This document shows positions 46,227 to 54,022 of a stretch of 64,000 bases of DNA, one piece after another. The notes under the pieces are model-generated. The model did no database searches. It was given only the letters and a program-made list of their open reading frames with translations, and was not told where the DNA came from. This DNA comes from Cliona cf. orientalis. Its lineage: Eukaryota > Porifera > Demospongiae > Clionaida > Clionaidae. Where the stretch lies: contig OZ005689.1 in assembly GCA_963930775.1 (NCBI GenBank), positions 27,012,798 to 27,076,797 on the forward strand. Direction: 5' to 3'. Each line of letters opens with the position of its first letter. Position 1 is the stretch's first letter. The position numbers and the translations under genes are program-made.

Positions 46227-46586
46227 CTATGCGGATGTAATCAAAAGTGGGTGTTCCCCTAATGTCCGCATTGTAATGTACATGAAACAGCAGTGATCTA
46301 CTATGGAATGATGGGCGCGGCGATAGCACAGCAATAATGGCGCTAGCGCCTTAAGGCGTCTCTCGCGCTTAATGATATGCACGCGCATGCGCCTTAAGGC
46401 GCTTCTCGCGTATAATCGGTTAAAGGTAAACTCGAGAAGAAATCGATCAAGAACCTCCTTTTTTAAACCGCTATTACTAGTGGGAGTTGAGGCCAAAACT
46501 ACCATTCATTCTTCGCTCATAAGCAAAGCACCAAAAGCATGTGGTGGTCCATAGTCCAGTATTACTTCTAACATATGCAAAACCAT
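46227..46586 (-). pseudogene. Old Tnp2-like (CACTA) transposase relic, downstream part
   Basis: On the minus strand, directly beside the younger CACTA element, the sequence reads LHMLEVILDYGPPHAF. With one frame change it continues as WCFAYERRMNG, then STPTSNSGLKKEVLDRFLLE. This parallels the younger transposase (HMASFIKDYGPIHAFWLFSF, then KQPNNNRAIEIQLMRRFLRD at about 52640-52780). The preceding part of the relic continues on the far side of the younger element at 54022-53957 (VEFYEKCRVTVNYRM). Confidence 0.6.
46340..46415. repeat. Two copies of a CGCCTTAAGGCG palindromic unit
   Basis: GCGCCTTAAGGCG(T/C) followed by TCTCGCG occurs at about 46347 and 46389 in tandem, 42 bases apart. GCTAGCGCTAGCGCG lies nearby (46210). 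CpG-rich palindromes in AT-rich DNA; function unknown. Confidence 0.5.
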
Positions 46587-46769
46587 CACTGGAAAAAATA
46601 TGTCATTTCCTAACACTGGAATGGGTACTAAATCTCTCTGAAATGTGAGTATTCCTGATTGATTTCTGTATAGTTCATCACCCCAGGAATGGTCACATTT
46701 TCTATTGAAATTAAATGTACAGGAATGTGCACAATTCAGGTGCAGGAAAAATATCAGGCAATTTGAAGT

Positions 46770-47095
46770 TTCGTGATGGAAATTACCCATGAAATTTAAA
46801 ATTTCCTATCATATTCATTCACATGATACTTGTCAAAACTTGAAATTTCATTATTAATTCCTTGATCATGATATTTATCAAAATTTGACGTTTCACAATG
46901 GGAAATTTTACATGAAATTCAAAAGTTCCTAGCATGATTATTAACAGGAAACTGATCAAAAGTTGAAATTTCACCATAATTCCTTAACATGATACTGATG
47001 AAGACTTGAAATTTTACCATATTTCCTTCATAATAATAATATGATACTGCCCGAATTTCAAAATTTCCTGATTCATGATAACATAAAGAATCTTG
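46770..47095. repeat. CACTA left subterminal repeats
   Basis: Degenerate tandem units of about 70-80 bases built on (TT)GAAATTTCA...AATTCCTTAACATGATACT. Their counterpart is at the right end. Such arrays usually bind the transposase; here that is inference. Confidence 0.6.
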
Positions 47096-47143
47096 AATAG
47101 TTAACCAGATTGGTCAGCAAAATTCAATTCATGTCTTTGGAAA

Positions 47144-48977
47144 TTATTTCTCAAATCCCCAAAATGTGCTAGAAAACTCAGCAGGTTTTGACCTGGTTGA
47201 TGTCTCACCCTGTACCCGAGGCAAAGTCTGCTGTGTGGCTCGCTTCGATTTTCCCCTCTCGTTTATTGTCGTAAGCTGGCCAAGGAATTTATTCACTTTA
47301 GGGTGACGCCAGGGAAGGGGCTTGACAAACATCACTTGTGTGGAAGTTCCATATGGGAGTTCCTCACTTCCACTTTCCTCACTGGACATGAAGGATTTGA
47401 CTAAGATCTCCATCCATTTCGTCCTCCTATCCTCAGGTATATCTACCTTCGCCAGTGTTGCCTTTCTGGCCGCCAATTTCTGCAATAAATAATTTCCAGG
47501 TGAATACATGTGTAGCAGCAAAAAATGATGCACAACTTACACTAGCAATTCTATTCCTCCTCCTCTGTACCTGGACTTTGTGCTCATATGTTTCCTTCTC
47601 CTCCTGAGCAGATTTTTCTGATATTGACTGATAAAAGCGTCTGGCAGCAGCTATGGTAATGGTAAACATGGTATATACAACAGTGACGGGGGAGGAAGAG
47701 ACTATGTAAAAATGTAAGTGCACAGCCAAGCTCAAATAACACGAAAATTTAATTTTTTTTGCCAGTGTGGTAAAAGTCATCACTCTATTAAATCACTAAT
47801 AGGGCAAATACTTGTGGGACATACCTTGAATTTGACTGACTGTCACTGATCCATCCATCGCTTTAGTTTCAGTTTTAACTTTCTTGACTACTGCTTGATT
47901 GGATGCATCAGAATAGCGCTTTCTATAACAATATCATAACAAAATCAACATGTACACAATTAGAGACATTGACCTTACTTTAAGTCAAATCCGTCAAATT
48001 CCTGCTCTGGATCATCCAATAGGCATTTGTAAACATCACGAACTAAATGCTAAAAACAAAAAAAATTGCAATGATAGCTATCTATCAGGATTAATACTGC
48101 TAGCGGGAAGCATCTCCAACACTCCCTCTCCCAACTGGTATTCACATCCAGTGTCACTCTTGAAGTACTGTACGTACGTACACATTAAGCACTCCTAATT
48201 ATTCAGCACCCTTTACCAAATTAATGATCTAACTCTTCGGTAAAGGTTGTCACGTGTAAATGCTATTAATAGCACATTACTGCATGCTAACATTTTGTCT
48301 CCACAAAAGCATCATGCATTAATCCCTGTATAAGCTATTTGACTTACACTGACACTCGTAGGCACTGAAATTTTAGGAGTATCACCTCCAGAAGTAGTCA
48401 CAGAAGAAGAGTGGGCCTTTTCTTCAAGCTGTTGCAGTCTTTTCTCTACATCACCGAGACGATCATTGGTCTTCTTCACCTGAGACAAAATTTCAAGGAT
48501 AGGCCCATTTAACGACTGCGTTTCAGATTTCCCCTCATCATCTCGATTTGTTGGTGTCAACCTGTTGTCAGCATTACTGAATCCATGCTTCATCGCACTG
48601 AGTGTTGCCGATGGAGTAGATGAAGTGCTCTTCTTCAGACTGCTACCTGGTACTGTAGGAGTGGTTCTGGCACCACCACTGCTTGAATAGTTCAAACGCT
48701 TAGGTACTACACTGTTAGATTTGGTACGTGCACGGCTATGACTTGATGTATCACTGACTCTTTTTTTCCCAGCAGCATCACCAGGATCATGCCGTTTAAG
48801 TGGGGGTTCAGGATTGGACGTATCACTACTTTGGCTATCTTCATCCTCAAGCTTTTCTGGTGAAATATCGTTTTCAGTATCAAATTCACCTCTTTCCTTC
48901 TGAGCCAGATATTCATAGTAAGACTGTGAACATTGAGCTTGTGTAAAATCTTCCAAACTCATCTGCATGTAATGCAT
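47144..48977 (-). CDS. CACTA accessory protein, five exons, 414 aa
   Basis: Exons on the minus strand: 48977-48348, 48049-47979, 47922-47825, 47650-47541, 47479-47144 (TAA). Every border is GT-AG, with good donors (GTAAGT, GTAAGG, GTATGT, GTAAGT), and phases agree throughout. The total is 1245 bases with no internal stop. The N-terminal 150 residues are acidic, then Ser/Thr-rich with basic KKR clusters. A coiled coil (LEILSQVKKTNDRLGDVEKR) is near residue 170, and a basic helix follows (YEHKVQVQRRRNRIAS). The C-terminus has MSSEESGSEELP and VKPLPWRHPKVNKFL, a signature of proteins that accompany metazoan transposons. It probably helps the transposase bind DNA; this is inference. An exon upstream of 48977 cannot be excluded. 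Confidence 0.75.
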
Positions 48978-49193
48978 ATACAGTCACCGAACAATTACAT
49001 GTAAACAAACATACAAAAGCAGTGTGCACACACACACACCCATAGCCTATATGTATGTTCACAAAGGTATCGATATTTACTCTAGTCCATGCATGCATGC
49101 ACACAGACACACACAGACACACACACAACACATACATACGTGCACACACACACACATGTACACAAAACACATATATATGCACACACACACATC

Positions 49194-49364
49194 ATAGTTG
49201 TCTGATAGTAATCGGGGTGCATGAGATGCATTTACTGTCAGATAACTATTTTGTTGGTGATTGACCTCTGTTCATCGTCGGCCTATGTAATGATGACCCA
49301 CCCCCTTCCCATAGCCAGCAAATTGCCTATAAAAACTTTGGTTGCTAGGCAACTACCAACAAAC
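49194..49364 (+). repeat. Family R repeat, copy B
   Basis: Same blocks as 31146-31316 in the opposite orientation (GGGTGCATGAGATGCAT, CCCACCCCCTTCCCATAGCC, GGTTGCTAGGCAACTACCAA), followed directly by a CA tract. Confidence 0.75.
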
Positions 49365-49439
49365 GCGCACACACACACACACACACACGTACATACAAAA
49401 CACATACACACACACAAACCACAGACATACACATAATAG

Positions 49440-49967
49440 GTATCTGCCAGTAATTGGGCATAGGCGTAGGAACCGGGGGGGCCATGGGGGCCATGGCCCC
49501 CCCAACCATCTGGCCAGAGAGCCCAAGATATGGCCTATCATTGTATCAACAGATACTTCAGCAAAGGCACAGTCCTATTAAACTGAGTCAACATATGAAA
49601 TTTCATAAATAAACAGCTAAAGAGTGTGCTCTGCTTGACTTACTGTTCGTTCTACAGCCAGAAAACCTCTTGCCTCGCTGTCACACAGCCTCGTCGATGT
49701 AAAGTGGGCGTGGTTTGAACAAAGTGTGGGCGTGGTCAAAAGGTTCGCGCGCAGGTATTGTTTGGCCCCCCTAACCTCAAATATGTTCCTACGCCTATGT
49801 TGGGGTGCATGAGATGCATGGTTGAATGCACCCCAATTACTGGCAGATAACTATTTTGTTGGTAGTTGACCTCTGTTCATCATTGGCCTACTTTATGATG
49901 ACCCAACCCCTTCCCATAGCCAGCAAATTGCCTATAAAAACTGGTTGCTAAGCAACTACCAACAAAC
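49440..49967 (+). repeat. Family R repeat, copy C, split by a MITE
   Basis: TATCTGCCAGTAATTGGG at 49441-49458 continues after 49799 as TTGGGGTGCATGAGATGC. It runs to CCAACAAAC and then a CA tract (about 49971-50034). Removing 49459-49799 and one ttggg joins the copy. Confidence 0.75.
49459..49799. mobile_element. 341-bp MITE, CATAGGCGTAGGAAC family, copy 2
   Basis: CATAGGCGTAGGAAC and its exact complement form the ends. ttggg is duplicated (49454-49458 and 49800-49804). The left subterminal sequence is GGGGGGGCCATGGGGGCC, matching the C-rich right end of copy 1. It sits inside repeat R copy C, inside the CACTA element. Confidence 0.88.
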
Positions 49968-49970
49968 ATA

Positions 49971-49992
49971 CACACACACACACCAAACACAG

Positions 49993-50034
<42 letters not shown>
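49971..50034. repeat. (CA)n microsatellite
   Basis: Long CA run beside family R copy C. Similar shorter CA runs lie at about 49028-49042, 49080-49190, 49366-49390 and 50136-50155, all between the two divergent CACTA genes. Confidence 0.9.
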
Positions 50035-50037
<3 letters not shown>

Positions 50038-50485
50038 TCCCTGTCATGCATGTTGCATTCAAATACAGCCACGTTTTCCCTATACATCCGAGGCTAGGAA
50101 AAAAAAAAAGCTTTAGCTGGGTCTGGTCTGCATGTACACACACACACACACACAGAAACTGGGTCATACCTCCGATTGGTGCCTTCAAGGGTGACACAGA
50201 TCAGTCAAAATAGTCAATGATATGGACCACACGCGCAGAAGACACAAACTGACTTGTAGCAGGGCACGAAATTACAGGGTACTTGCAGAGCGCTCGAGCA
50301 CCAAAGAAGTCTACGTGATTCTTGCCCGCCAAAATACATATCCCGCCGGCGCCAAGGTCAATAAGCCCGCGCGCGCCTAGGCCCTGGCAGTGCACATGCG
50401 CAATGTTTTAATAAGAGCAAATCCCGAATAATTAACTTGACGTGATATGTTTTGGTGTGCATCATATAGAATAATCGTTGTCAAT

Positions 50486-53407
50486 ATGAGTGCAAGGAAG
50501 AAGCTACGAGTTTCTGCTGCCACCCACCGAATTTGTCCTCACTGTGACAAAGAATTGACCATTAAAACATATCGAGCTCATCGAAGGCTATACTTTGATT
50601 CTCAGTCTAAATCTTGGCTAATAGCTGGCAAGTATGCTCAAGAACCCAAAGCCACCAGCTTACCATCCGCACAGGACGAAATTATTGATCCACCTGGTGA
50701 CGCTACTGACGATGAAACCAACCCAGAAACTGACTATATGGATGTCGATGTACTTTTAGAGTGTGATCATCAATCTGAGCTTGACTCAGACCATGCACAA
50801 TGTATGTTTGCCAAATAATCTGCTACCAAACGTACAGCCACATGGCCATATCACTAATCCATCTGGTAACGAAGCAGACATTGAACCTCAACCAGGTAGG
50901 ACCATATTGTATGCATATAAACTTGAAAATTTAGCCATAATTGTTTTGTATTTATATATGATTTAGAGTATTGGTTGGAGTCTGATAAAGATGTTATGGC
51001 AGACATTGAACCTCCCCAAACGTTGGATGCTGTGATTGCAGCCACGAACAGTGAGCAAGACAAGTCTAGTCGAAGTATTATCTGGTGGATAGTTCTATTC
51101 GTCAATGTATTTCAAACCCTCCACGACATATCAGACCAGGCAATACCTTGGCTACTGAAATTTTTATGGGCACTATTGACGTTTCTGGGTACGTACTCAC
51201 CGGTCATAGCCAAAGCCTCTAAATTTTTTCCATCATCACTGTATTTGCGGGATAAGTTAAACGCATGGAAGGACAATTTTCTGCGTTACGTAGTTTGTCG
51301 AAAGTATCACACATTATATAAATATCAAGAGTGCATTGAAGTAATAGGAACAAGACGCAGGGGGAGATTGTGCTCTCACTGTTCATTTTCGAATGTTTGT
51401 GGTGGACTGCTGCTCAAAGAAGTTATAACTCCTGGTACCATCACGTTTTATCCTCATAGTGTCTTTTGTTATAAGAGTGTCATTGATGCTATGCAAAGAA
51501 TTTATCAGTAGACCAGGATTTGCTGATACTTGTGAAAGTACTCGAGATTTGCATACTAGACCCGGTATTTGTAATGTTTATCAAGGTCAAATCTGGAAGG
51601 ATTTCTTGAAAATAAATGGAAGGAATTTTCTCTTAGCACCATATGTATATGGTTTTATGTTAAATGTTGACTGGTTCAAGCCCTTTAAACATCAAGAATA
51701 TAAAGTTGGAGTGATCTATTTGGCGGTACTTAACTTACCGAGAGAAATACAGTACAAATGAGAGAATATTATTGTTGTTGGAATTATACCTGGGCCGTCT
51801 GAACCTCCTACTACCATAAATAACTATTTGTACCCTCTCATGACTGAACTACTCAAACTATGGAATGGTGTACAGTTGACTATTCATAGGAGGGGTCGTC
51901 ATATTGTCCGTGCTGCTCTATTGAGTATTGGTTGTGATCTCCCTGCTGCTAGAAAAACCTGCGGCTTTCTAAGTTATGTTGCCAATTTAGGATGCTCTCG
52001 CTGTTATGTCAATTTTTCAGGGGGATTTGGTCGAAGAAACTATTCAAATTTCAGGAGGGAGTCATGGAAGCCTCGAACGAATGCCCAATACCGAGCTGAT
52101 GTTGAGAAAATTAAGAAATGTAAAACACTAACTGATTGGTTGAAAATGGAGTCCGAACTAGGATGTCGGTATTCAGTATTGTTGCAGCTACCATACTTTG
52201 ATCCAGTGCGAATGCTGCAATTGGATCCAATGCACAATCTTTACCTTGGTACATCTAAAATGGTGATTCGTAAGGTTTGGATTGAGCGTAATATTCTGCC
52301 TCCAGCTAAAGTAGCGATAATCAATAGACGTCTAAAGCGAATACATGTACCAATCGAAATTGGCCGTGTTCCTGTGAATATACAGTCTGGTGACACATTC
52401 ACCGCAGAACAATGGATGAACTGGACCATGTATTTTTCAGTGTATTGTTTATTTGAGCTGCTAACTCCAAATGAAATTGAATGTTGGAGGCATTTTGTGC
52501 TTGCGTGCAGGCTTTTATACAAGAGAAAATAACTGCAGAGGATGTAACTGTATCTGATGCACTTCTAATAAAATTTTGTTCCAGAATGTGCCGACTGTAT
52601 GGTTGCCGAGTTGCCACCCCAAATATGCACATGCATGGACACATGGCTTCCTTTATCAAAGATTATGGTCCAATCCATGCATTTTGGCTGTTTTCCTTTG
52701 AACGCTACAATGGTCTGCTGGGTAAGCAGCCAAATAACAACAGGGCAATTGAAATACAGCTTATGAGACGGTTTTTAAGGGATAATGTACACTTAAATCT
52801 ACTCCACGAAGGACGGACACAAGAATTTCATCAAGAATTTTATGATGTTGTTGTAAGACATGCACAATCGTTTGACTCTATGAGCTCGAGGGTAGCTACC
52901 ACTGATACTGATACTTTGTACTCAAAGCCTTCCAAGTTTAATATGATTACATTAGGACAAGAAGAACTACAAGTCCTACTCTCCATGTATTGTGAGCTGT
53001 ATCCACAACACAAAGATAAACTACTCCTGGATGGATTGCCAAAGTGTGCTAAGAAATATAGTCATACAATAGCAAGCTTTCATCAAAGGATTATGTACTT
53101 GCTGAACCAGTATTCATGTTCCCTGGTGACAGTGAAGTAAAGATTCAACCAGCAAAAATCGTCCACTTTATTATGCACTCTGTTTATTGATGATGAAAGG
53201 AAATGTACTTTGTTTGCAGTTGTTCAATGGCCTTTGAACCATCCACGTCAGAATGCAATGGGCAAGCCAGTTGAAATCTGGTGCAAACATTTAAATGAGC
53301 CCTACATCAAGAATCTTTTTGTTCCAGTTGAAAGAATAGCTAAAAGAGTGATGTATGCGTATGAACCTATTGATGGAGAAGTACTTGTTGTTATTCCCAT
53401 TGTTTAG
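50486..53407 (+). pseudogene. CACTA Tnp2-like transposase, broken
   Basis: Start MSARKKLRVSA at 50486, then a zinc-finger-like CPHCDKELTIKTYRAHRRL. Predicted exons run 50486 to about 50801, about 50838-50895 (PHGHITNPSGNEADIEPQP) and from 50967. Conserved transposase text follows: LNVDWFKPFKHQEYKVG (about 51665-51710), IIPGPSEPPTTINNYLYP, LPYFDPVRMLQLDPMHNLYL (about 52185), NMHMHGHMASFIKDYGPIHA (about 52625) and VEIWCKHLN (53270). Lesions: a phase clash at the first intron, frameshifts near 51505, 52528, 53115 and 53190, and an in-frame TGA at 51759-51761. The enzyme would cut and paste CACTA elements; this copy cannot make it whole. Confidence 0.85.
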
Positions 53408-53479
53408 TTCATAGTTATGCATTATTAAAAAATTGATGTATAATAAAAATTCGAAATTCAACTTATAGTGTGTATACAA

Positions 53480-53945
53480 TGTCAAGAAATGCATGGAAAT
53501 GTCAACTTTCCTATGAAAATTGTCAACAGGAATTCTGAACCAGGAAACTTAACTCATGCTGACTTAATTTCCATGTTTTCATGAGAATTATGTTAGGAAA
53601 CTTTTGTTAGGAAATTTCAAGAAATGTCACTTAAACTCTATATTTCTGGATGAAGATATGTAAAGGATATCTTTATTACTAAACATCATGAATGCTGATT
53701 AAACTTGATATTAATTTTCATGAATACCATAAATGCAAGGGAAATCTTGACAATGATAGGAAATGTCATGAAATATCCAAAAAATTCGGTGTTTCATGAA
53801 TGGCAATAGTTTAAAGGAAATGCTCATCAGGAATTCTCATTAAATTTGCTGAAATGCCAATTTTCCTATGCTATTTCCTAACAGTAAACTTGATGATAAA
53901 TTTCCTGTTTGTTTTCTGATAAGAAAAGTTGGTGGAAATCTGCTT
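53480..53945. repeat. CACTA right subterminal repeats
   Basis: Degenerate units with AGGAAAT(T/G)TC, CATGAAAT and CCTATG words, mirroring 46770-47095. The element ends 11 bases further on. Confidence 0.6.
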
Positions 53946-53956
53946 TTTTTCCAGTG

Positions 53957-54022
53957 CATGCGGTAGTTCACTGTAACTCTACATTTTTCATAGAACTCGA
54001 CAGTAGGCAATACGGTGATCAT
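53957..54022 (-). pseudogene. Old Tnp2-like relic, upstream part
   Basis: The minus-strand frame reads TVEFYEKCRVTVNYRM up to the TSD. It is continuous in sense with LHMLEVILDYGP on the other side of the CACTA insertion (46586). Equivalent text in the younger copy is IKFCSRMCRLYG to NMHMHGHM. Confidence 0.5.

Follow-up and report, generated by a model that had tools for sequence, protein, structure and literature searches.

Published CACTA elements carry a transposase open reading frame (ORF) together with a second one, ORF2; where families have been studied, the latter supports excision and transposition, according to the relevant passages of one report (PMC4158355). The corresponding passages of another state that TNPA binds the subterminal repeats, that both proteins are required, and that TNPA-like proteins share little sequence (PMC2613891). 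For the Schistosoma element SmTRC1, part of its description proposes a TnpA-like function for a small protein that is not conserved (PMC1636069).

We analyzed a 64,000-nucleotide stretch of the Cliona cf. orientalis genome (the window), which lies on contig C1 of a 217-Mb assembly (216.8 Mb, 149 contigs). An initial annotation had found there an element with a dead transposase gene and an intact accessory gene, and had suggested that the latter may be kept for another use. We favor a simpler reading, to which we give a probability of roughly 0.8: the minus-strand gene is the regular ORF2 of a recently broken EnSpm/CACTA-type element, and the shorter gene has so far taken no fatal hit. A puzzling gene is thereby placed as the divergent five-exon partner of Transposase_21 genes, without a Pfam name.

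Two divergent genes between inverted ends

The element has its termini at exactly 46587 and 53956, with CACTGGAAAAAA inverted at both and the 3-bp repeat CAT/CAT outside. The accessory gene (minus strand) and the transposase gene (plus strand) are divergent, and the roughly 550 bp between each gene and the nearer terminus are rich in AGGAAA/TTTCCT. Its features, in window coordinates, are as follows.

46587-53956, no strand: EnSpm/CACTA-type element, recognized by its inverted ends and by a second copy on contig C10 with its own flanks
46584-46586, no strand: target duplication CAT, left
53957-53959, no strand: target duplication CAT, right
46587-46598, plus: left inverted terminal repeat, 12 bp
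53945-53956, minus: right inverted terminal repeat, 12 bp
46587-47143, no strand: left subterminal region, 6 AGGAAA/TTTCCT sites
53408-53956, no strand: right subterminal region, 9 AGGAAA/TTTCCT sites
48348-48962, minus: accessory exon 1, acidic/serine-rich, coiled coil
47979-48049, minus: accessory exon 2
47825-47922, minus: accessory exon 3
47541-47650, minus: accessory exon 4
47144-47479, minus: accessory exon 5, conserved MSSEES...PLPWR domain, stop
49459-49799, no strand: nested 341-bp insertion between the accessory gene and the transposase gene, TTGGG flanks, absent from C10
50486-50895, plus: transposase exon 1 (exon end read directly), CxxC...HxxxH-like N-terminus, one frameshift
50967-53407, plus: transposase exon 2, Transposase_21 domain, four frameshifting length changes and a stop

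The 1,106 terminal bp hold 15 AGGAAA/TTTCCT sites, compared with a mean of 1.1 and a maximum of 5 in 500 shuffles, and the 6,264 bp between the terminal regions hold 6. The ends of the C10 copy have 14. The Transposase_21 domain (PF02992) scores 30.7 bits in the window piece and 46.1 bits in the C10 frame, above the cut-off of 28.6, and the target duplications are short, as in EnSpm/CACTA elements, at 3 bp in both copies (CAT in the window, TAC in C10). Both copies have ends that start with CACTG, not CACTA; we therefore assigned the element by its transposase and duplication only, and do not call it CACTA in the strict, plant-type sense. A pattern search for plant-type CACTA ends was uninformative, giving 4 matches versus 3 for the pattern in reverse.

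With the accessory region and the right end as queries, DNA searches turned up a single further member of this family, on C10, which is flanked by TAC/TAC and has the same CACTG termini. In this copy the main transposase frame stays open for 829 residues, but exon 1 of the gene is broken up by a 493-bp insertion (L065 4140-4632) that has long inverted ends and repeats nine bases in its flanks; the insertion also contains a stretch that we take to resemble a tRNA-type B box. In both family copies, then, the accessory gene is uninterrupted and the transposase gene is interrupted. The 341-bp insertion in the window copy has perfect 15-bp inverted ends, CATAGGCGTAGGAAC, between its TTGGG repeats, and C10 provides the empty site. 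It is probably a small non-autonomous transposon.

The accessory gene has five exons, four GT-AG introns, matched phases and no internal stop. Re-reading the sequence agreed on all of this with the initial annotation, whose 414 codons become 409 residues plus a stop in our count. When the protein was aligned blind to the window with splicing allowed, the identical five exons were recovered, the last without its stop codon. Between the window and C10 there are no length changes in the five exons (1,230 nt) and nine in the four introns (582 aligned nt). Intron 1 includes an 80-bp piece (window 48189-48269) with matches of 73 to 83% identity at 38 or more further genomic sites, and C10 carries it too; to judge from these matches, it is an old dispersed repeat. 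It accounts for 38 of the 40 DNA matches to the accessory region, which are short and are not gene copies.

The damage to the transposase gene was also confirmed. Where at least four frameshifts and a stop had been reported, comparison with C10 showed five frameshifting length differences (4, 1, 1, 10, and 2 bp) and an in-frame stop near 51759, in addition to two differences of 3 bp and, at the gene's extreme end, a gap of 4 bp. On direct inspection of the alignment, 50896-50966 looks like a GT-AG intron of the transposase rather than damage.

Accessory genes and Transposase_21 genes across the genome

In two genome-wide protein searches we identified 21 accessory loci that do not belong to the family of the window element. 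Fourteen of them have a divergent Transposase_21 gene 3.1 to 6.1 kb away, the arrangement expected if the gene is a second element-encoded gene (ORF2) of EnSpm/CACTA elements; this count used 39 Transposase_21 places, not every match row of the protein searches. Among the other seven, one, a weak match at C2:11500372 (E = 1.5e-4), has its neighbor on the same strand and was counted as not divergent. The remaining six (C3:9327798, C1:23533133, C1:26766372, C1:25970843, C1:28326793, and C1:22011088) have no Transposase_21 match within 12 kb, as checked by eye against all Transposase_21 rows; at C3:9327798, the orphan locus O1, only exons 4 and 5 were found in the 4 kb examined.

Where the accessory protein could be aligned best, the sizes of exons 2 to 4 recur: 71/98/110 nt in the window and F1, 65/98/110 in F2, and 74/98/110 in F7 and F6. 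The match is weaker in F10 (65/98/104) and F5 (85/84/110), and spliced alignments were partial in F3 and in orphan locus O1, the latter covering exons 4 and 5 only. Given the divergent pairing and these common internal exon sizes, we regard the accessory gene as the elements' own second gene. When six accessory proteins are aligned, 34 columns are invariant; exon 5 contributes 18 of them, exons 2 to 4 contribute 11, and exon 1 contributes 5. Homologues of exon 1 among public proteins include P0006 and P0007, at 77 to 80% identity, and P0001, at 37%.

Over the ten or so elements considered, damage is mostly concordant between the two genes. The initial annotation had named stops in the accessory gene of other copies as telling against its proposal, and such damage is present: F2, F8, F9, and F10 have a stop or frameshift in this gene. 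In the first three of these, the tested 650-residue transposase piece carries two or three disablements as well, and for F10 only a transposase fragment was found. Neither gene is damaged in the parts examined of F1, F4, F5, and F7 (exon 5 only for the F4 accessory gene). In F3 the transposase piece is undamaged and the accessory gene has a single doubtful frameshift, in a poorly aligned stretch; in F6 the accessory gene is clean and the transposase has one frameshift. The window element is among the few discordant cases.

Contig C1, at 37.5 of 216.8 Mb, holds 49 of 69 Transposase_21-type protein matches in a hand count whose rows are not always separate elements. In the same count, 15 of 49 rows on C1 carry stops, versus 1 of 20 elsewhere. 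C1 may be a chromosome that is rich in repeats or recombines poorly.

Divergence and decay of the two genes

Between the window and C10, the accessory gene shows 10 synonymous and 11 nonsynonymous changes, an omega of 0.32, which supports divergence of the two copies under purifying selection. Transposase exon 2 shows 12 synonymous and 23 nonsynonymous changes, one gene-end artefact included, with an omega of 0.57; the codon comparison started the transposase intron one base late. The two genes do not differ significantly in this split when exon 1 is added (Fisher P = 0.41, with the transposase entered as 26:14, which includes the artefact and five exon 1 changes read by eye, three of them nonsynonymous and two synonymous). 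A control pair from another family, F5 and F6, gave an omega of 0.40 for the accessory gene at a dS of 0.041; the F5 transposase piece is undamaged. The dN/dS proposed earlier as a check is not near 1, but the value of 0.32 spans the active phase of the lineage as well as the time after transposase loss.

Changes can also be assigned to branches by homologue majority. Of the accessory amino acid changes, six fall on the window branch, three on C10, and two are without assignment, several of these assignments being based on one or two homologues. For the transposase, nine changes fall on the window branch (eight missense and the stop), six on C10, and seven are without assignment; the last codon row of that comparison is the gene-end artefact, and nine window-assigned changes rather than 10 were used. 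Per nonsynonymous site, this amounts to 6/~950 in the accessory gene (0.63%) versus 9/~2,090 in the transposase (0.43%; P = 0.58). One of the window-assigned accessory changes hits a glycine kept by the other five aligned proteins.

The transposase coding sequence (2,871 nt) has six disabling events and the accessory coding sequence (1,227 nt) has none, a distribution with a P of 0.12; if in-frame changes are included, for eight or nine events, the probability of none in the accessory gene is 0.058 or 0.041, and all of these are P values for a picked case, since the window element was chosen because of its intact/dead contrast. The contrast in damage is not clearly beyond chance, and the data give a weak hint that the accessory gene is better retained than the transposase. 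The suggestion that the intact gene is kept for another use is not supported: window-assigned changes are equally dense in the two genes, the P for disabling events is 0.12, and the gene is the usual divergent partner of Transposase_21 genes.

These data fit a regular ORF2 in a recently broken element. Selection would have maintained the accessory gene during the active time of the lineage; the window copy would then have lost its transposase, and since then its accessory gene would have gained missense changes and no frameshift or stop. Some observations sit less well with this reading: the 1,230 accessory coding nt contain no length change and the transposase contains eight, which on the widest counts has a P of 0.04 to 0.06; C10, too, has an uninterrupted accessory gene next to a split transposase exon 1; six accessory loci lack a nearby Transposase_21 match; and several of the branch assignments depend on one or two homologues.

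We also weighed the possibility that the accessory gene has been retained after transposase death, with its product helping related elements in trans or repressing them by blocking their ends. Both family copies have accessory genes without a frameshift or stop although both transposase genes are interrupted, the widest disablement counts give P values of 0.04 to 0.06, and six accessory loci have no Transposase_21 match nearby. However, the window-assigned changes are as dense in the accessory gene as in the transposase, with one at the conserved glycine, and a count restricted to disabling events gives a P of 0.12. Furthermore, the single orphan locus read, O1, has exons 4 and 5 only, and the family copies found for the product to act on number two. 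We consider such retention unlikely. Its broader form, in which accessory proteins outlive transposases in this genome as trans-acting EnSpm/CACTA regulators, has the same basis, intactness in both family copies and six loci without a recognizable transposase nearby, and seems to us equally improbable.

Early domestication, which would make the window copy a host gene by now, is very improbable. Splicing and frame are intact and omega is low, but the gene is still bounded by intact element ends and a 3-bp duplication that looks fresh, its omega resembles that of the F5/F6 control, and nothing indicates that it has changed more slowly than the transposase. That the five-exon reading is a chance pattern and no gene at all, as the lack of a Pfam match might suggest, is extremely improbable given length changes placed in introns and not in exons and homologous genes elsewhere with matching exon sizes, and we take the gene model to be beyond chance. 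Finding an accessory gene intact next to a transposase that is dead does not necessarily signal domestication.

A putative TnpA-like role and relation to known systems

Pfam scans of the accessory protein, of six family members, and of exon pieces found no credible family and detected no sequence similarity to the plant TnpA/TNP1 families; for this reason we say that the protein works like TnpA, not that it is a TnpA. A BEN-like or bZIP-like region, which we had considered, was unsupported by the same scans. Searching solved structures with the family profile gave nothing (best E = 0.35). A single-sequence structure model of exon 5 has two helices at a mean pLDDT of 59.6. In the open-licence literature of one library, we recognized no publication describing this gene family. 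A divergent, unnamed ORF2 family in this genome is mildly new.

The protein combines a coiled coil with a basic stretch, and its C-terminal part is conserved. By analogy to published ORF2, TNPA, and SmTRC1, we infer that it binds the AGGAAA-rich ends. A TnpA-like action, in which the protein would self-associate through its coiled coil and bind these ends for the transposase, is somewhat favored; bound ends would let the transposase pair and cut them. The DNA-binding help proposed in the initial annotation is a reasonable guess at the native role of the protein, but is not supported as the cause of its intactness. The protein and its end repeats are a pair suited to probing a TnpA-like role outside plants.

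The window element resembles plant En/Spm (TnpD plus TnpA/ORF2), as outlined in the relevant passages of two reports, in having Transposase_21, a second encoded protein, subterminal repeats, and a 3-bp duplication (PMC4158355, PMC2613891). It differs in its ends, which are CACTG and not CACTA, and in its accessory protein, which has no detectable Pfam relation to the TnpA family; its second gene is separate and divergent, whereas that of Spm is spliced from one unit with the transposase. With SmTRC1 and the animal/fungal TRC elements, as far as the sections of their description that bear on this go, it shares a Transposase_21 element of animal type and a second protein poorly conserved between species (PMC1636069). 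According to the same sections, TRC elements have 2-bp duplications, unlike the 3 bp here, and their small protein comes from alternative splicing (PMC1636069). Like domesticated transposon genes, the window element keeps a readable gene after transposase loss; unlike them, its ends and duplication are intact, and its accessory gene gives no sign of being more conserved than those of other elements.
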